A stretch of 13,129 nt of DNA, from NCBI GenBank assembly GCA_030643285.1, contig DAOWMC010000008.1, positions 1-13,129 on the forward strand, written 5' to 3'. The first letter of the stretch is position 1; each line of letters begins with the position of its first letter. Made by a program: the position numbers and the translations under genes. The notes beneath the pieces are model-generated. The model was not told where the DNA came from, searched no databases, and saw nothing but the letters and a program-made list of their open reading frames with translations. This document shows positions 586 to 12,649 of this stretch, one piece after another. This DNA is from Methanobacteriota archaeon (GTDB lineage: Archaea > Halobacteriota > Syntropharchaeia > DAOWMC01).

Positions 586-1287
586 TTGACTGGTTATAAG
601 CTGGGAATAAACGGATTGGGTGATGTGATAGGGGATATAAAGGGTGGTACGAATATACTGCTGATTGGTCCGCCAATGTGTGGAAAGAATATTATTCTCA
701 ACAACATTATGTTTCAGGGTCTATCAGATGGTGAATTTGCAGTTTTTATTACAACTGCAGAATCAGGTGAAAATATAATTAATTGGTTTACAGAAAATAA
801 AAAAGGGGTTGAGGACCATATGGATCAGTTTGGTGTAATTGACTGCGTATCTAAAACGCTCGGTCTTAATGTTGGGGACACCCAGACCATAAAAAGGGTA
901 TCCTCCCCTGTGAATCTAACCGGGATCAGTGTAGGAATAACAAGCTTTTTTGAGGACTTCTGGATGAAAAAAGAAATCCATAAAGCACGAATGTGTATTG
1001 ACTCCCTGTCTACAATGCTTATGTACTCGAACATACAAACTGTTTTTAGATTCCTCCACGTTCATTCCCGTAGAATAAAAACAGCCGATGCAATTGGCAT
1101 TTACATCGTTGAAAGCGGTATGCACGATGAGCAAACCATCGTTACGGTCAAGCAATTGTTTGATGGAGTATTAGAGATAAAAAATGAAGAGGATAACCTT
1201 TTTATCAGGGCGTTGGGATTATCACCCAAACCGACCAAATGGTTCGGGTATGAAATCGATGGAGCAGAGGTAATTGTAGAAGTATAA
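586..1287 (+). CDS. KaiC/RecA-superfamily ATPase (RAD55-like), single domain
   Basis: A 233-residue P-loop protein of the RecA/KaiC (COG0467-like) group. With the TTG start, the P-loop is at about residues 28-35 (GPPMCGKN). The lysine is kept but asparagine replaces the usual Thr/Ser that binds magnesium. A KaiC-type acidic stretch follows (ITTAESGENI, glutamate near 59), then a Walker B strand ending in IDSLS (Asp near 139). The C-terminal IRALGLSPKPTKWFGYEI resembles the KaiC-family final strand. The TTG at 586 is chosen because the GTG at 577 lies inside the Shine-Dalgarno sequence; GTG would add three residues. The next gene begins 19 nt downstream and carries a degenerate copy of the same fold, so the two products may pair. 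Substrate and role are unknown. It could also be compared with the archaellum ATPase FlaH, but no archaellum genes are nearby. Fold is confident, function is not. Confidence 0.85.
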   Translation: MTGYKLGINGLGDVIGDIKGGTNILLIGPPMCGKNIILNNIMFQGLSDGEFAVFITTAESGENIINWFTENKKGVEDHMDQFGVIDCVSKTLGLNVGDTQTIKRVSSPVNLTGISVGITSFFEDFWMKKEIHKARMCIDSLSTMLMYSNIQTVFRFLHVHSRRIKTADAIGIYIVESGMHDEQTIVTVKQLFDGVLEIKNEEDNLFIRALGLSPKPTKWFGYEIDGAEVIVEV

Positions 1288-1306
1288 AAGAAAAGGAGAT
1301 GCAATA

Positions 1307-2479
1307 ATGATTAAAACAGGGATCCCCAAATTGGATGATTACTTGAATGGAGGATTGCCTACTGGAAAATCGTTGCTGTACTATTGTCAGCCCGGTGTCG
1401 AAGGTGATGTTTTTGGGATGCAGACGACATATATTAATTTACAACAGGGGTATAAAAGTGTTTGTATAGCCACTGCATCATCCCCGGATGTCATCAGGGG
1501 TAAATTCACTGAGTTTGGATGGCCTCTTGAAAAATTTGAAAACCAATTCGAAATTATTGATGCTTACTCTGCTCTGATCGGAGCTGATTCTTCTGAAAAA
1601 TACGTAGTTGAAGACCCTGAGAACATAAAGAACCTTGATAAAGTTATTACAGAAGTTATTGAGGATTCTTCAGGTAAAGTAATCATACATGGGTCTATTT
1701 CAAATATAATAGACATGTGTGGCGAGGATCAGGCTTTAGAGTACATAGAAAACTGGAATAAATACATAATGTTGTACGATGTAGTTGGGATATACAACTT
1801 CACGGTGTGGCCCTATTCCGATAAAACGGTGGAAAGGATTAAAGACGAGCTTTTTAATGCGGTAATCAGGATAGGCGGTGTTTCAGAGCATGTAATTTTC
1901 GGGCAATACTATTCGGTAACAAAAGCAGATTGGACAAAGGCGATGATTGATAGCTCCATACTATTTAAGGTTCTGAGGCCAGGTGGTGTAAAGGCATTTA
2001 TTCCAAAGTTACTTGTCACCGGTCCATTCAACGCCGGAAAATCCTCATTTGTACAATCACTTTCGACAAGGTCGGTCTCGGTAGACCGAATGGGAACCAC
2101 AGTAGCGCTGGATATTGGTCATATAGACCATAAGGGCTTTTCTGCAGACATTTTTGGAACGCCAGGCCAGGAGCGATTTGATCCGATTCTTAAGTTACTT
2201 GGCGGAGAAGCGATGGGTGTTTTTCTTGTGATAGATTCCGTCAAAGGTAATGAATTTGAAAGGGCCAGACAGATGTTGGAAGTTACAAGGACACGTGGCT
2301 TACCCTGCGTAATTGTTGCAAACAAGCAGGATCTTCCTGATGCGCTCAGTATAGAAGAAATAAAAAGACAAATGGAGATTTCTAAGAATATACCAATCGT
2401 ACCTGCGGTTGCAAAAGAAAAGAAAGGGGTATTCGAGGCATTTGAGATATTAATTGATCAGATAATGGTGGGAATATGA
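1307..2479 (+). CDS. Fusion of a degenerate KaiC-like domain to an MglA/COG2229-type small GTPase
   Basis: A 390-residue two-domain protein. Residues 1 to about 225 follow a KaiC-like layout (TGIPKLDDYLNGGLPTGKSLLYY at the start), but the P-loop reads CQPGVEGDVF (27-36), with Asp and Val where Lys and Thr/Ser belong. The Walker B strand ends VIIHGSIS instead of IDSLS. This half looks like an inactive, structural ATPase fold. Residues from about 232 form a Ras-like GTPase: G1 GPFNAGKSS (239-247), switch I threonines in GTTVALD (263-269), G3 FGTPGQERF (283-291), G4 NKQD (339-342), and a plausible G5 near AVAK (367-370). The FGTPGQERF form with Gly for Asp is typical of COG2229 proteins, relatives of MglA. 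The start has a good ribosome site (AGGAGAT, 1294-1300). The gene overlaps the Roadblock gene by 4 nt (ATGA), implying translational coupling with a likely GAP-type partner. Domain calls are confident; the cellular role is unknown. Confidence 0.88.
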   Translation: MIKTGIPKLDDYLNGGLPTGKSLLYYCQPGVEGDVFGMQTTYINLQQGYKSVCIATASSPDVIRGKFTEFGWPLEKFENQFEIIDAYSALIGADSSEKYVVEDPENIKNLDKVITEVIEDSSGKVIIHGSISNIIDMCGEDQALEYIENWNKYIMLYDVVGIYNFTVWPYSDKTVERIKDELFNAVIRIGGVSEHVIFGQYYSVTKADWTKAMIDSSILFKVLRPGGVKAFIPKLLVTGPFNAGKSSFVQSLSTRSVSVDRMGTTVALDIGHIDHKGFSADIFGTPGQERFDPILKLLGGEAMGVFLVIDSVKGNEFERARQMLEVTRTRGLPCVIVANKQDLPDALSIEEIKRQMEISKNIPIVPAVAKEKKGVFEAFEILIDQIMVGI

Positions 2480-2844
2480 ATACAACAAAAGAAATGCTTG
2501 AAAAACTTTTAAACGATTTGAAAAAGGTAGGCGGGATCGAGGCATCTGCCGTTGTCTCGCGTGATGGTTTATTAATGGCATCTGATATCCCTTCGGGCAT
2601 TCATGCAGAAACATTTGCTGCAATGAATGCAACGATGGTTGGCGCGGCAGAGACTGCAATTTCAGAACTTAAAAAAGGTGTCCCGGAGAGGGTCATAGCT
2701 GAATCCAAGGAAGCAAAGGTAATCGCTACAGGTGCTGGCTCAAAGGCACTTTTAGTTGTTATGACTTCCCCTGATGCGGGGCTGGGTCTGGTACTTGTTG
2801 AGATGGAACGGATAACAGAAAAAATAAAGAGTATTTTGGACTGA
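2476..2844 (+). CDS. Roadblock/LC7-domain protein (MglB-like), probable GTPase partner
   Basis: A 122-residue single-domain protein with the Roadblock pattern: an amphipathic N-terminal helix (KEMLEKLLNDLKKV), GGIEASAVVSRDGLLMASD as the first beta hairpin, a long central helix rich in alanine (AAMNATMVGAAETAISEL), and a second beta region (KALLVVMTSPDAGLGLVLVEM) followed by a final helix. Roadblock proteins of this kind dimerise and act on MglA-family GTPases; MglB of Myxococcus is the GTPase-activating protein of MglA. Direct overlap with the preceding GTPase gene (ATGA) makes that GTPase the obvious partner, which is an inference. Its TGA stop abuts the TAA of the convergent tiaS gene with no spacer. 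No transmembrane segment or signal peptide is present, so it is probably cytosolic. Confidence 0.88.
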   Translation: MNTTKEMLEKLLNDLKKVGGIEASAVVSRDGLLMASDIPSGIHAETFAAMNATMVGAAETAISELKKGVPERVIAESKEAKVIATGAGSKALLVVMTSPDAGLGLVLVEMERITEKIKSILD

Positions 2845-4098
2845 TTACCTGTTCAAGTGTACTTTTTTCCCTTTTTCATATTTTTCTCTAATCAACGGCT
2901 TTGATATGTGCCTTCTTGCAACAGGTGGGACTTCATATAAACCAGGCTCTATAACCCTTTCAACCAAAAAGCGATCTTTCTCATCAGAATAAGTTTTACA
3001 GCTCTTGCATCTGTACTTTTGACCTTTTCCACTCGATTTCATTGTTTTATCACATTTGGGGCACTTTGGATTTGTATATGTAAATTTATCCTTCAGGTAT
3101 TCCACTTCAATTTTTTCCAGGTTTATCGTATTATTTTTAACACTTCCAAATGCAGTTATAACGTCATCCTTTAAAAGTGCCCTTACGATATCTCTGAAAT
3201 TTTTTGTGGGTTCATATGCAGCACAATCAATACAGGCCGAACCGTCAGATATGCTAAATATGACATGTCCGCCTGAAATCGTATGGGGATCATCCCTTAT
3301 CTTACCCCTTAAAATGTATGAGCAGCCTTCTTTTACCTCTGAAATTTCAGATGAGATTAGATGCGAATCAGTTCCCTGATTTGTTGTAAAAAGTACCGAC
3401 CTTTCAAATGGCTCTGATTTTACAATTTCATTTGCCTTCACAATTGCAGAGACCTCATCACCCCTTATGCCATAAAGAACCGGACACCCAGAGTGTGGGA
3501 AAAAGACAATTTTTTTATTTACCAGATCCACCGTATCCCAGGTCAATGGGTATGTTTCTCTATCTGCTTTAAAAACCGATTGTCTGTCTATGTTCCTTTT
3601 ACTGCCCCATTGATCTTTATATCTGTAGGTAATAAGTTCATAGGTAAAGTCGTCAAGCTCTGCCCCGACCGCTGCCAGAGCCCCAATGAGTCCTCTTTTG
3701 TTCTTGAAACCTTTATGATGAAGTCCATATTTTGAAATTAATTTTTTAGCCTCATCGATACGGATAGTTTCTTTAACTGCCCTTTTTGAAAATAATTTAA
3801 TTTCATCCGGCACATTTGGTGCAAAAACCACCCCTGGGTTCGTGTTTTCTTCCTTTAGCTCCGCCAGATCTTCTATGGTCTTTATTGTTATCTCTTCAAC
3901 CTCTTTTTGATGTTCTGTGTCTATACTAATGGCAATCGCTGCATTTCCTCTTGTTTTATATTTTATGGTGGGGTTTAGCCGTATCAGGCGTGGGTTACTC
4001 ACTTTTCCATAACTCTTTAGCCTCTCGATTAAGACGGCGGCTATGTAGGTGGTGCACATTCCCTGTTTTGAGTCGGTATCATCAAAGCCAATGAACAT
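2845..4098 (-). CDS. tiaS: tRNA(Ile2) 2-agmatinylcytidine synthetase TiaS
   Basis: TiaS uses ATP and agmatine to modify C34 of tRNA-Ile(CAU) to agmatidine, letting that tRNA read AUA and not AUG. It is essential to decoding in nearly all archaea. The 417-residue length matches the family. The N-terminal FIGFDDTDS (DDTD at 6-9) and LNPTIKYKTRGNAAIAI (41-57) are hallmarks. The middle contains GLHHKGFKNKRGLIGALAAVG (125-145). An OB-fold follows (about 253-335, with YILRGKIRDDP and VIFSISDGS). A C-terminal zinc ribbon has Cys 346, 349, 364 and 367 (CPKC and CKSC). The ATG at 4098 puts the hallmark motif at the very N-terminus. No strong ribosome site is visible, so the message may be leaderless or nearly so. 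It is transcribed divergently from pus10 and ends against the Roadblock gene. Confidence 0.96.
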   Translation of the reverse strand: MFIGFDDTDSKQGMCTTYIAAVLIERLKSYGKVSNPRLIRLNPTIKYKTRGNAAIAISIDTEHQKEVEEITIKTIEDLAELKEENTNPGVVFAPNVPDEIKLFSKRAVKETIRIDEAKKLISKYGLHHKGFKNKRGLIGALAAVGAELDDFTYELITYRYKDQWGSKRNIDRQSVFKADRETYPLTWDTVDLVNKKIVFFPHSGCPVLYGIRGDEVSAIVKANEIVKSEPFERSVLFTTNQGTDSHLISSEISEVKEGCSYILRGKIRDDPHTISGGHVIFSISDGSACIDCAAYEPTKNFRDIVRALLKDDVITAFGSVKNNTINLEKIEVEYLKDKFTYTNPKCPKCDKTMKSSGKGQKYRCKSCKTYSDEKDRFLVERVIEPGLYEVPPVARRHISKPLIREKYEKGKKVHLNR

Positions 4099-4185
4099 TT
4101 ATTTTGGTGTATTAATTACAATTTATTTAGTTATTTGCATTAAGCAAAGATTAAGTGTTTTCAAATCCAATTCTGCCAGGTTATC
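4099..4185. promoter_or_regulatory. Divergent promoter region between tiaS and pus10
   Basis: An 87-nt A/T-rich spacer between two genes pointing away from each other, so it must serve both. CAATTTATTTAG at about 4120-4131 could act as a TATA element. The pus10 ribosome site is weak (AGGT just before the ATG). No operator-like repeat is evident. Confidence 0.45.
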
Positions 4186-5430
4186 ATGGATCTGATTGAA
4201 GTTGCTATAAAGGTTGTACGGGAAGGGCCAATCTGCGATTCCTGTTTAGGCAGACAGTTTGCAAAACTGTCTACGGGCCTAACAAACAAGGAACGTGGAA
4301 TGGCAGTAAAAACGGTTCTATCCATGATGTCTGTTCAGAACATCGAGAACCTTAAGATACCGGACAAAGAAAAATGCTGGATCTGTAACGGGTTATTTGA
4401 TAAACTGGAATACTGGGCAAATAAAGCAGTTGAAGAAATAAAAGACCACGATTACGAAACTTTTCTGGTTGGTACTAATGTAACAGGACTGCTTTCTGAA
4501 AATGAAGAGATTATATGGACCGAATCTCAAACACAATGGGCCGAACCGGCCAAATCAGAGTTGAACCGGGAAGTTGGCAAATTGATATCTCAAAAGACGC
4601 TCAAAGAGGTAGATTTTTCAAGACCGGACCTGGTATTAATTTTGGATCTGGAGGACGATCTGGTAAAAATCAAATCCAATTCGCTATTCATATACGGGAG
4701 GTATAGAAAGCTTATCCGTGGTATCCCTCAAACAAGGTTGTTCTGCAAAGAATGTGGGGGTTCTGGTTGTGAAGTGTGTGAAGGGACCGGAAAGCGGTAT
4801 AAAGAATCGGTTGAGGAATTATTGATCTGGGCGGCACTTGACCGGTTCAGAGGTTCGAATGCCTCTTTGCATGGAGCCGGGAGAGAAGATATTGATGCTT
4901 TGATGCTTGGTAACGGAAGGCCTTTTGTTTTGGAAATCAAAGATCCGATTTTAAGAAATGTTGACCTTGCCAGTCTAAAAAATGAAATAAATGAAGAAAA
5001 TTTTGGAAAACTTGAGGTTTTGGGACTTAAATATGTGAATAAATCAACGGTTAAAACAATAAAGACGATAAAAGCAGATAAAGTCTACAGAGTCAAGATC
5101 TCATTGGATAAAAATGTTGAAAGGGAAAAATTGGAAGGGGCACTAATTAATTTGAAGGGAGTCATAAAACAAAAAACCCCAAACAGGGTGATTAAAAGAA
5201 GGGCAGATCTGATAAGGGTGCGAAAAGTCCATGACACGGAACTTAAATCTTTAGAGGGTGACACAGCGGTGATAGAGATAGACTGTGAAGGTGGACTGTA
5301 CATAAAAGAACTGATGACGGGAGATGACGGGAGAACGAACCCGAATCTTTCGGATCTACTCGACACAAATGTAAAGGTTAATGAGCTGGATGTTACTAAT
5401 GTACAGATAGACGAAGGTCATATCATATAG
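4186..5430 (+). CDS. pus10: tRNA pseudouridine synthase Pus10 (positions 54/55)
   Basis: Archaeal Pus10 forms pseudouridine 55, and often 54, in the T loop of tRNAs, replacing bacterial TruB in that job. The 414-residue protein has the expected N-terminal zinc module (Cys 17, 20, 64, 67 in CDSC and CWIC), a THUMP-like middle region (about 85-165), then [20 protein letters not shown] (186-205), a cysteine-rich stretch usual in archaeal Pus10. The catalytic domain begins near [22 protein letters not shown]. The catalytic aspartate should be D235 in [16 protein letters not shown]. The arginine I expect in this motif (REDIDxRxLG) is leucine 239 here. The gene heads a translation cluster, with rpl21e 34 nt downstream. 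The archaeal pus10-rpl21e pairing is common and supports the call. Confidence 0.95.
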
Positions 5431-5789: not shown

Positions 5790-5942
5790 TTGGGAAAAAA
5801 GACAAAGGGAAAGAAACTAAGGTTGGCAAAGGCATGTAACCAGAATAGAAGACTGCCTGGCTGGGTTATGATTAGAACAAATAGAAAGGTTACCACTCAT
5901 CCTAAAAGAAGGCATTGGAGAAGAAGCAAACTGGATGAGTAA
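5790..5942 (+). CDS. rpl39e: 50S ribosomal protein L39e (50 aa, TTG start)
   Basis: A very small, highly basic ribosomal protein that lines the peptide exit tunnel in archaea and eukaryotes. Translation from TTG gives 50 residues starting [20 protein letters not shown] and continuing [30 protein letters not shown] to TAA. The conserved PxWVxxRTNRKVxxxPxxRHWRRxKL pattern is complete, and 50-51 residues is the family norm. The gene lies 10 nt after rpl21e and just before rpl31e; rpl39e-rpl31e-eif6 is a standard archaeal order. Its small size and TTG start make it easy to miss. A longer open frame on the opposite strand (5432-5896) is spurious. Confidence 0.95.
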
Positions 5943-10929: not shown

Positions 10930-11091
10930 ATGACAAAAGGAACCCCTTCGTTGGGGAAAAGACAGAAGAGAAGTCACATTAAATGTAGGAGATGTGGTAG
11001 AGTTTCATTTAACACACACAGGAGCTGCTGTGTTTCATGCGGATTTGGAAGATCAAAACGTATGAGAGGTTATAACTGGAATCGAACCTGA
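10930..11091 (+). CDS. rpl37e: 50S ribosomal protein L37e (53 aa)
   Basis: A small zinc-ribbon protein of the archaeal/eukaryal large subunit. Translation from ATG gives [20 protein letters not shown], then [20 protein letters not shown] and [13 protein letters not shown]. Zinc ligands are Cys 19 and 22 (CRRC) and Cys 34 and 37 (CVSC). The opening MTKGTPSxGKR and the ending RxYNW are diagnostic. GGTG at 10920-10923 is the likely ribosome site. In many archaea an Sm-like (LSm) gene directly precedes rpl37e; here the upstream 200 nt hold only regulatory-looking sequence. Downstream, purF starts 52 nt after the stop and could share the message or use its own TATA box. Confidence 0.95.
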
Positions 11092-11095
11092 ATAA

Positions 11096-11143: not shown

Positions 11144-12562
11144 TTGCAAGAAAAATGTGGTGTGGTTGGGGTTTTCCTGGATGAGCCAAAGGAGGAAAAT
11201 CACGCCGCAATATCGATGTATTATGCGCTATTTGCCCTTCAGCACAGGGGCCAGGAGTCTGCGGGCATCGTTATCAGCAAGGATAAAAACATGCGCATAA
11301 TCAAGGGCATGGGCCTGGTCCCCGAAGTTTTTAATGAGCATAACTTGGGGGATTTGAAAGGTACATTTGGGATAGGCCATGTTAGGTATTCGACGACAGG
11401 CGGTTCAAAATTGGAGAACGGTCAACCTCTGATTGTTGAATACAGGGGAGGAAGAATTGCAATTGCACATAACGGAAATTTAGTCAACTCGAAAGAATTG
11501 CGCAAAAAGTTGGAATCTGAGGGGGGAATCTTTTTATCGACATCAGATACTGAGGTAATAGCCCATCTGCTTGTTAAAGAGCTTATGAAGTCGGATATAA
11601 CCAATGCGATCAGGAAAATGATGAGGCAACTGGTGGGTTCTTATTCATTAGCGATACTTATTGATGATACGGTAATAGCTGTCCGTGATCCACTCGGATT
11701 TAAACCATTGTGTCTTGGTGAGATGGAGGGAGGTTATATAGTGGCGTCCGAAAGTGTTGCCATTGACACACTGGATGGGAAATTCATAAGAGATATAAAA
11801 CCGGGGGAAATCCTTATATTAGGAGGTGGGAGACCGGTCAGCCACCAGGTCTATAAATCACAACATACGGCACACTGTGTTTTCGAATATATATATTTTG
11901 CAAGAACTGACTCGGTATTAAATGGTAAGATGGTCTATGATGTGCGCAGGCGCATAGGTGAAACACTGGTTAATGAACATGCCGTCGATGTAGATATAGT
12001 CTCCCCTGTACCGGACTCAGGAGTTACATTTGCGATTGGGTATGCAATAAAGTCCAAGATAGACTATATAGAAAGCCTAATAAAGAACAGATATAGTAGT
12101 AGAACATTTATATTGCCCGGTCAGGAAATGAGAGAAATTGCAGTTAGATTGAAGTTAAATCCTGTGTGCTCAAATGTGAAGGATAAGAAAATAGTGTTGA
12201 TAGATGACAGCATCGTTAGAGGAACGACCGCTAAAAGAATCGTTAATTCACTTAAATTAAAAGGTGCAAAAGAGGTGCACTTAAGAATTGGCAGCCCCCC
12301 TATAAGGTATCCATGCTATTTGGGAATTGATATGGCAACCAGAGGGGAGCTGATAGCCTCCAATAGAGATGTGGAGGGAGTTGGTAAATTGATGGGGTCG
12401 GATTCAATCGGGTATGTGAGTACCGACGGCCTGGTCGAATCAATCGGCATATCTTCAGAGAATCTCTGCATGGGCTGTCTAACCGGGATTTACCCTGTAC
12501 AGATACCGGGGGAAAAGTGTGTGATAAGGCAGCTAACATTAGCTGGGGTAGCGCGGGGGTAG
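11144..12562 (+). CDS. purF: Amidophosphoribosyltransferase (glutamine PRPP amidotransferase)
   Basis: Catalyses the first committed step of purine synthesis, PRPP plus glutamine to phosphoribosylamine. The 472-residue protein begins MQEKCGVVGVF; removal of the four-residue propeptide would expose Cys 5, the Ntn-hydrolase nucleophile. The glutaminase half shows LQHRGQESAGI (32-42), GHVRYSTTG (78-86) and AHNGNL (108-113). The transferase half has the PRPP loop VLIDDSIVRGTT (351-362). Four cysteines (245, 391, 442, 445; the last pair in NLCMGC) match the 4Fe-4S ligands of the Bacillus-type enzyme, so an iron-sulfur form is expected. The start is TTG. The last three codons and the TAG stop lie inside the tRNA-Leu gene; the non-conserved tail VARG is therefore written partly by the tRNA acceptor stem. 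Confidence 0.96.
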   Translation: MQEKCGVVGVFLDEPKEENHAAISMYYALFALQHRGQESAGIVISKDKNMRIIKGMGLVPEVFNEHNLGDLKGTFGIGHVRYSTTGGSKLENGQPLIVEYRGGRIAIAHNGNLVNSKELRKKLESEGGIFLSTSDTEVIAHLLVKELMKSDITNAIRKMMRQLVGSYSLAILIDDTVIAVRDPLGFKPLCLGEMEGGYIVASESVAIDTLDGKFIRDIKPGEILILGGGRPVSHQVYKSQHTAHCVFEYIYFARTDSVLNGKMVYDVRRRIGETLVNEHAVDVDIVSPVPDSGVTFAIGYAIKSKIDYIESLIKNRYSSRTFILPGQEMREIAVRLKLNPVCSNVKDKKIVLIDDSIVRGTTAKRIVNSLKLKGAKEVHLRIGSPPIRYPCYLGIDMATRGELIASNRDVEGVGKLMGSDSIGYVSTDGLVESIGISSENLCMGCLTGIYPVQIPGEKCVIRQLTLAGVARG

Positions 12563-12649
12563 CCAAGCTTGGTCAAAGGCGCAGGACTTAAGATTCTATA
12601 AGATATCCTGTCTTGAAGAAGTTCATGGGTTCGAATCCCATCCCCCGCA
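12553..12649 (+). tRNA. tRNA-Leu (anticodon UAA) with a 12-nt intron
   Basis: The acceptor stem GCGGGGG (12553-12559) pairs perfectly with CCCCCGC (12642-12648), followed by discriminator A 12649; CCA is not encoded. The D arm is GCC/GGC (12562-12564, 12578-12580). The anticodon stem CAGGA (12582-12586) pairs with TCCTG (12606-12610). After intron removal the loop is CTTAAGA with anticodon TAA at 12589-12591. A class II variable arm (12611-12624, CTT/AAG stem) and a T arm (ATGGG, loop TTCGAAT, CCCAT, 12625-12641) complete it. The long variable arm and anticodon identify leucine. The 5' end overlaps purF by 10 nt, and a T-run follows the 3' end. Confidence 0.95.
12593..12604 (+). other. 12-nt archaeal tRNA intron at canonical position 37/38
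   Basis: ATTCTATAAGAT interrupts the anticodon loop. CTTA (12587-12590) pairs with TAAG (12599-12602) as the 4-bp central helix. The two 3-nt bulges are AGA (12591-12593) and ATA (12603-12605). Cutting after the second base of each bulge gives exactly this intron and a normal 7-nt loop. Only five bases (TTCTA) remain beyond the central helix and first bulge, so there is essentially no inner helix. Confidence 0.88.

Follow-up and report, generated by a model that had tools for sequence, protein, structure and literature searches.

A candidate GTP-driven module of archaea in which an MglA-type GTPase is joined to a KaiC-like domain with degraded ATPase motifs

Gene pairs encoding an MglA-type small GTPase and an MglB-type Roadblock protein are known from archaea. 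According to the sections of PMC4316618 (Wuichet and Sogaard-Andersen 2014) used here, MglA Groups 2-5 carry GTPGQ at the G3 motif and a Thr instead of the Group 1 Arg at G2, with NKxD as G4 in Groups 1, 4 and 5; Group 4 is almost exclusive to methanogenic Euryarchaeota, and an Asp-Gly pair is the sign given for MglB of Groups 2-5. For KaiC-like proteins, a role as central hubs in the signalling of archaea has been proposed (2017 paper, as cited in PMC5847659). Here we analysed three adjoining genes in a 13,129-nucleotide stretch of DNA from an archaeal draft genome (assembly GCA_030643285.1, contig DAOWMC010000008.1; this whole stretch is hereafter the window). They encode a KaiC-like protein of family DUF7504 (gene A), a fusion of an inactive KaiC-like domain with a small GTPase of MglA type (gene B) and a Roadblock/LC7 protein of MglB-like type (gene C). 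We lean towards reading the three proteins as one module, in which a pseudo-ATPase scaffold carries a switch driven by GTP. MglA-MglB pairs themselves are known, and what we rate as new is that such a pair is built into an inactive KaiC scaffold.

The set resembles the archaeal Group 4 MglA-MglB pairs in its GTPGQ motif, its Thr-Thr at G2, its NKxD motif and its adjoining Roadblock protein with an Asp-Gly pair, and an MglB homologue stands beside B in the window and in 75 of the 77 testable loci, as against none of the 16 loci examined in a second branch of B (described below). It differs from these pairs in that B, at 390 aa, carries the GTPase as its C-terminal half behind a dead KaiC domain, and in that a second KaiC-fold protein adjoins it. 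The length of B lies outside the 150-240 aa size rule of PMC4316618, where sequences longer than 240 aa were dropped from further analysis; the word KaiC is absent from the text of that paper. For archaeal KaiC-like proteins such as iKaiC and ArlH/FlaH, no fusion to an MglA-type GTPase with a Roadblock partner is described in the literature portions consulted. Another KaiC-like protein, CirA of Haloferax, affects motility and shape (PMC13286277). The Streptomyces conservons (CvnA-D) likewise combine a Roadblock protein (CvnB) with a small GTPase (CvnD), and the solved chains matched by C include cvnB5; unlike them, the present set has KaiC-fold proteins, and neither a CvnA-type sensor kinase nor CvnC is found among the annotated window genes. 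A further likeness is to the Rab/Rag-like GTPases and Roadblock proteins of Asgard archaea, where GTPase-Roadblock fusions also occur, whereas the GTPase genes of Asgard MK-D1 are generally not in operons with Roadblock genes, as they are here (PMC10933270, whose text does not contain the word KaiC). No description of the triad was found in the titles and abstract openings of the literature searched, nor in the available portions of PMC4316618, PMC4858521, PMC5847659, PMC10933270, PMC13286277, PMC6011876, PMC6393860 and PMC3149612; Makarova 2017 (mBio), which lay outside this search, may list it.

Gene B (1307..2479, forward strand, 390 aa) holds the GTPase in its C-terminal half (2003..2476, residues 233-390), with Arf, Ras and small-GTP domain matches at about residues 234-386. 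The best GTPase match by sequence among solved structures is 3t12 (entry 'gliding protein mglA', E 1.2e-10), with Arl3 close (2.1e-10). Motifs were counted for all three proteins over aligned non-identical rows, window included. The G1 motif (GPFNAGKSS, 2021..2047) follows GxxxxGK[ST] in 91 of 91 rows of B, and the G3 motif (DIFGTPGQERF, 2147..2179) is of the GTPGQ type in 88 rows and GTPxQ in all 91. Thr-Thr replaces the Group 1 Arg at G2 in 91/91 rows, and NKxD is present at G4 in 90/91, the remaining row having a gap. With regard to the bacterial insertion between G1 and G2, the spacing from the G1 Lys to the G2 Thr is 20 in 89 of the 91 rows as readable by pattern, in an alignment made without bacterial MglA; this stretch is longer in some copies of B from the second branch and from the PAS-type operons described below. 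In a midpoint-rooted tree of 60 rows without the bacterial MglA groups, for which the tool issued a long-branch warning, the fusion GTPases (49 rows) cluster apart from 11 stand-alone archaeal GTPases with a support of 100/96.

The N-terminal half of B (1307..1990, residues 1-228) has a KaiC match of 1.1e-19 at residues 2-143 and adopts a KaiC fold in the AlphaFold model (mean pLDDT 90.4, pTM 0.85 for the whole protein). The place of the P-loop is degenerate (QPGVEGD, 1388..1408, residues 28-34, flanked in the model by strand 22-27 and helix 34-46), and the P-loop Lys is present in none of the 91 aligned rows, which bears out the label of pseudo-ATPase given to this half by the original prediction. 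An alignment of A with this domain by hhalign (98.7%, 23% identity) indicates that the two are homologous. Two other assignments were considered and set aside. A GGxPxGK[ST] stretch at residues 15-22 was rejected as Walker A of B since it precedes strand 22-27 in the model; as a plain pattern, it occurs within the first 60 residues of B in 70 of 91 rows. B was also not accepted as a tandem KaiC, its Foldseek alignment to two-domain KaiC chains having an rmsd near 12.

Gene A (586..1287, forward strand) encodes 233 aa from a TTG start within an open frame spanning 577-1287; an alternative GTG start lies at 577, and the TTG at 586 fits best because relatives start M(S/T)xYxLGI at the matching place. 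The product matches the Pfam families DUF7504 (2e-24; 87.4 bits against PF24336, curated cut-off 27) and KaiC (8.9e-11), and a RecA/KaiC fold is present in its AlphaFold model. Its Walker A place (GPPMCGKN, 667..690) keeps the Lys and has Asn for Ser/Thr (GKN, not GK[ST]), and the Walker B Asp (CIDSLS, 1000..1002) is kept in the window. Over the 88 aligned rows of A, the P-loop Lys is kept in 82 and the Ser/Thr place reads Glu (44), Asp (21), Ser (16), Lys (2), Ala (2), His (1), Asn (1, the window) or gap (1), i.e. Glu, Asp or Asn in 66 rows. The Walker B position is Asn in 58/88 rows, and Glu or Asp at Walker A (GKE/GKD) is paired with this Asn in 58/88; mixed combinations of the two motifs occur (L011, L016, L029 and L048). 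Judged from the alignment, the pairing looks like the transfer of an acidic residue from Walker B to Walker A, on the other side of the metal site, a shift that follows lineage and may go back to one or few events. Five loci in which A seemed fused to other domains, with open frames up to 552 aa, were rejected as fusions, the extra length being judged open frame before the start; the open reading frame (ORF) list was checked for one of them, L175.

These motifs bear on what A does with ATP. The original prediction took A for a working KaiC-type ATPase whose ATP state is coupled to the GTP state of B, and the retention of the P-loop Lys in most rows, the Walker B Asp of the window's A and the intact GKS of A in 3/3 operons beside PAS genes speak for such activity. 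The motifs of the family as a whole do not bear it out: Walker motifs are degraded in most of the 88 rows, at the Ser/Thr place as well as at Walker B, and the Lys itself is gone in 16/16 examined second-branch loci. The Walker B Asn is the same kind of change as D126N of Pyrococcus furiosus FlaH, which strongly lowers nucleotide affinity (PMC6011876). We thus regard a working ATPase as unlikely. FlaH also offers an intermediate case: it has a KaiC fold, binds ATP, shows no hydrolysis in the experiments of PMC6011876 and acts via partner binding, which requires nucleotide. By analogy, A might bind ATP without hydrolysing it, as FlaH/ArlH do, and ATP occupancy would only set the assembly of an A-B scaffold. 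The Lys and Asp of the window's A fit this reading, to which we give a minor but real chance; the branch without the Lys still keeps A beside B (16/16 examined), so that the pair can dispense with ATP binding there. The preferred reading, in which GTP drives the module, keeps A and the N-terminal half of B as degraded folds.

Gene C (2476..2844, forward strand, 122 aa) matches Robl_LC7 in Pfam (1e-15) and, by profile, the solved Roadblock chains 9jue, 7f8m, 3leq (cvnB5) and MglB chains. Its Asp-Gly pair (RDGL, 2563..2568) is found as DG in 84 of 86 aligned rows. Elsewhere in the same genome, a second Roadblock gene (L180:2908-3279, reverse strand, contig C173) lies 10 nt downstream of a gene at 3290-4465 (reverse strand) that was called FtsZ-like by eye, with no family search used, and a third Roadblock gene is located at L181:2123-2485 (reverse strand).

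The three genes follow one another as originally described, with a 19-nt gap between the A stop (1287) and the B start (1307) and a 4-nt overlap in which one ATGA serves the B stop and the C start. This arrangement recurs widely. Of 4988 candidates in a protein search with B, 1635 were relatives at E <= 0.001, and the best 120 listed have 57-97% identity over 98-100% of B. A contig scan with B found 213 loci encoding a relative, the best 80 of which were kept, so that the following counts lean toward close relatives; at 90, 75 and 65% identity, single linkage groups the 80 loci into 50, 18 and 10 clusters. Represented are Methanoperedens, ANME-2, other Methanosarcinales, Methanocellales, Alkanophagales and Archaeoglobales, together with a few records labelled Hydrothermarchaeota, Undinarchaeales or Thermococci (labels unchecked). 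A lies directly 5' of B in 77/77 testable loci, the other three ending at a contig edge; in two Alkanophagales loci, A matches weakly, with 34 and 38 bits, and has lost its P-loop. The cluster includes C in 75 of the 77 testable loci (three of the 80 are again contig-cut), directly after B in 73 and in the order C-A-B in two from Alkanophagales. Junctions are tight, with an overlap of at most 11 nt or a gap of at most 10 nt at 71/77 A-B and 63/73 B-C junctions, ORFs being taken from the first possible start codon, by which overlaps may be overstated. The possibility that the three genes rarely co-occur in relatives, on which the original prediction would have fallen, is thus contradicted in the loci examined. 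Over 32 loci, the correlation with the distances of ribosomal protein S19e is 0.955 for the distances of A, 0.945 for those of B and 0.51 for those of C; since A and B track S19e, vertical descent is likelier for these two and less clear for C. A mobile or viral origin was considered and rejected, one scan of viral contigs with B having given 0 relatives.

Links between the proteins were sought in gene fusions and in correlated change. In locus L133 (genome G019, family f14), B and C form one 546-aa open frame with KaiC, GTPase and Robl matches. A search with the Roadblock part of this frame yielded 15 protein clusters of the B-C type (65-91% identity): 14 measure 522-524 aa and combine the KaiC, GTPase and Roadblock domains, and the remaining one, which is 418 aa long and comes from a contig of 1345 bases, shows no KaiC match. 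G1 is kept in 15/15 of these clusters and GTPGQ in 14/15. Such single-chain fusions argue that GTPase and Roadblock belong together, and we take them as the best sign that the Roadblock protein acts on the GTPase of B; the pairing of the two that had been predicted is supported by them and by the MglA-type motifs of B. After regression on the S19e distances over the 32 loci, A correlates with the N-terminal domain of B at 0.49 and with its GTPase at 0.58, and the two halves of B with each other at 0.47. This correlated change mildly favours a contact between A and B and lends no support to C. Another reading holds that the three proteins have separate partners and share an operon for co-transcription only. 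It draws on the frequency with which A stands alone and on the second-branch copies of B without a nearby C, and it is countered by the B-C fusions and by the persistence of the set in the orders C-A-B and PAS-C-B-A; we find it very improbable.

To place the set within the phylum of the window, 392 genomes drawn from that phylum were surveyed with profiles of B and A. The B profile matched 119 of them at E <= 1e-20: 37 genomes have a full or nearly full-length B match (39 places), 50 a partial match to the KaiC or GTPase part, and 32 a match that begins at residue 114-186 of B, the frames being about 390-540 aa long; these 32 define the second branch. A is found (E <= 1e-15) in 35 of the 37 genomes with full-length B, the exceptions being G009 and G384. 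In family f8, five genomes (L155-L159) have a close A (E 2e-104 to 2e-110) without B beside it, preceded in L155 by a MoCF_biosynth gene; no Roadblock was found in the 4/4 f8 genomes examined for it, which keep A without full-length B, a point in favour of the module reading.

The second branch was examined at 16 of its 32 loci (L116-L129, L151 and L152), in genomes that we suspect to be Methanomicrobiales. A lies directly before B in 16/16 and the G1 motif of the GTPase is kept in 16/16; Roadblock genes occur elsewhere in 15 of these 16 genomes, none being found in G242. In 13/16 loci, the A-B pair stands behind FeoB, itself preceded by a DtxR/FeoA gene, all in one orientation and with -100 to 152 nt between FeoB and A; two more have feo genes nearby on the other strand and one has none in the retrieved stretch. 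The A-B pair is often trailed by a TP_methylase gene and a DUF357 gene. With such a context, A-B might be an accessory regulator of a membrane machine, e.g. of ferrous-iron uptake, acting on FeoB or reporting iron. The feo context is limited to the second branch, whose examined loci are without C, and the annotated neighbours in the window and in the named loci are mostly translation and housekeeping genes; we hold this reading quite improbable. A paralogous operon, composed of one or more PAS genes followed by C, B and A on one strand, occurs in G384, G191 and G365, three genomes that belong to the same family (loci L134, L135 and L136); among annotated neighbours, no sensory gene other than PAS adjoins the set directly.

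Several of the survey and alignment results weigh against the module reading. Regarding the company the genes keep, A is present in 216/392 genomes (E <= 1e-15) as against 37/392 for full-length B, and 20/20 examined lone or extra A loci are without a GTPase or Roadblock match in the retrieved stretch (two of these, L161 and L172, end soon after A, and L160 has A in two pieces). L132 (G009) has B and C and is without A, L070 and L085 are without C beside B, and no C match adjoins A-B in any of the 16 examined second-branch loci. Regarding C, the Asp-Gly place reads Gly-Gly in 15/15 B-C fusions, from which we gather that the Asp is not always needed, and C correlates weakly with B after the S19e regression (0.15 and 0.21 for its two parts). 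Regarding the GTPase, G3 is GTPGH in L133 and in one of the 15 fusion clusters (P0121), and the second branch deviates at G3 in 4/16 loci (L118, L120, L128 and L151) and at G4 in 6/16 (L125, L127, L128, L129, L151 and L152); some second-branch GTPases may therefore be dead. Regarding A, Ser and Asp are both kept in 15/88 rows, 12 of them with the Lys and three without; judging from these rows and the intact GKS beside PAS genes, some members of the A family may bind ATP or make use of it.

The window corresponds to contig C161 of the draft genome, whose 231 contigs add up to 1.3 Mb (65% complete), and its remaining annotated genes are mostly for translation and housekeeping. Upstream of A lies the 3' end of the glycyl-tRNA synthetase gene (glyS, 25-513), and C converges head-on with tiaS (2845-4098, reverse strand), their two stop codons abutting at 2844/2845 with a spacer of 0 nt. 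The other annotated genes are pus10, those for L21e, L31e and eIF6, a FabK/NMO-like gene, dapF, cofH and purF, together with one gene that has radical-SAM domains only by domain search and was read by eye as QueE-like. In agreement with the original prediction, no motility or sensory gene is among them. Two short genes below the 60-aa ORF cut-off (5790-5942 and 10931-11092) appear by eye to encode ribosomal proteins L39e and L37e, and a tRNA-Leu gene (anticodon TAA, 12553-12649) shares 10 nt with the end of purF. No common functional thread was found among the recurring neighbours of the named loci (10 proteins annotated), i.e. a CRM/YhbY-domain protein, S19e, a dsDNA-binding-family protein, a class I (cysteinyl-type) tRNA synthetase, a DNA glycosylase, two ABC transporter parts, a UPF0146 protein, a radical-SAM protein and one PAS protein (L136).

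Taken as one GTP-driven module, the set would work as follows. The GTPase of B, of archaeal MglA type, is by its motifs the part with intact nucleotide binding features in the window's branch. A Roadblock dimer of C would dock on it and set its nucleotide state, either as a GTPase-activating protein (GAP) or as a guanine nucleotide exchange factor (GEF), a link suggested by the B-C fusions. The dead KaiC fold of B would pair with A, giving a hetero-oligomeric scaffold on which the GTPase is clustered or presented; the folds come from models of single chains, and the pairing is proposed from strict adjacency and homology. A and the N-terminal domain of B would then work by partner binding, as the non-hydrolysing FlaH/ArlH do, and not by an ATP cycle. 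More tentatively, the two dead homologous KaiC folds could form a mixed ring or stack displaying MglA-type GTPases whose state is set by Roadblock dimers, a clock-like scaffold turned from ATP-driven to GTP-driven. The signalling switch originally proposed thus stands in part: the GTPase, the Roadblock protein and the two RecA-type domains are supported as a switch-type module; ATP state as an input is not sustained, neither by the N-terminal half of B, devoid of the P-loop Lys, nor by the degraded motifs of A. Genes for iron uptake (FeoB) and PAS sensing adjoin sister copies of the set.

To the known archaeal MglA-MglB gene pairs, the family described here adds a form that has GTPase, Roadblock and KaiC fold in one chain. 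The module is a concrete candidate for what drives inactive KaiC folds, namely a GTPase of Ras-like type accompanied by a Roadblock regulator of its own, and the idea is open to testing beyond the present draft genome, as relatives exist in named records of Methanoperedens, Archaeoglobales and other archaea.

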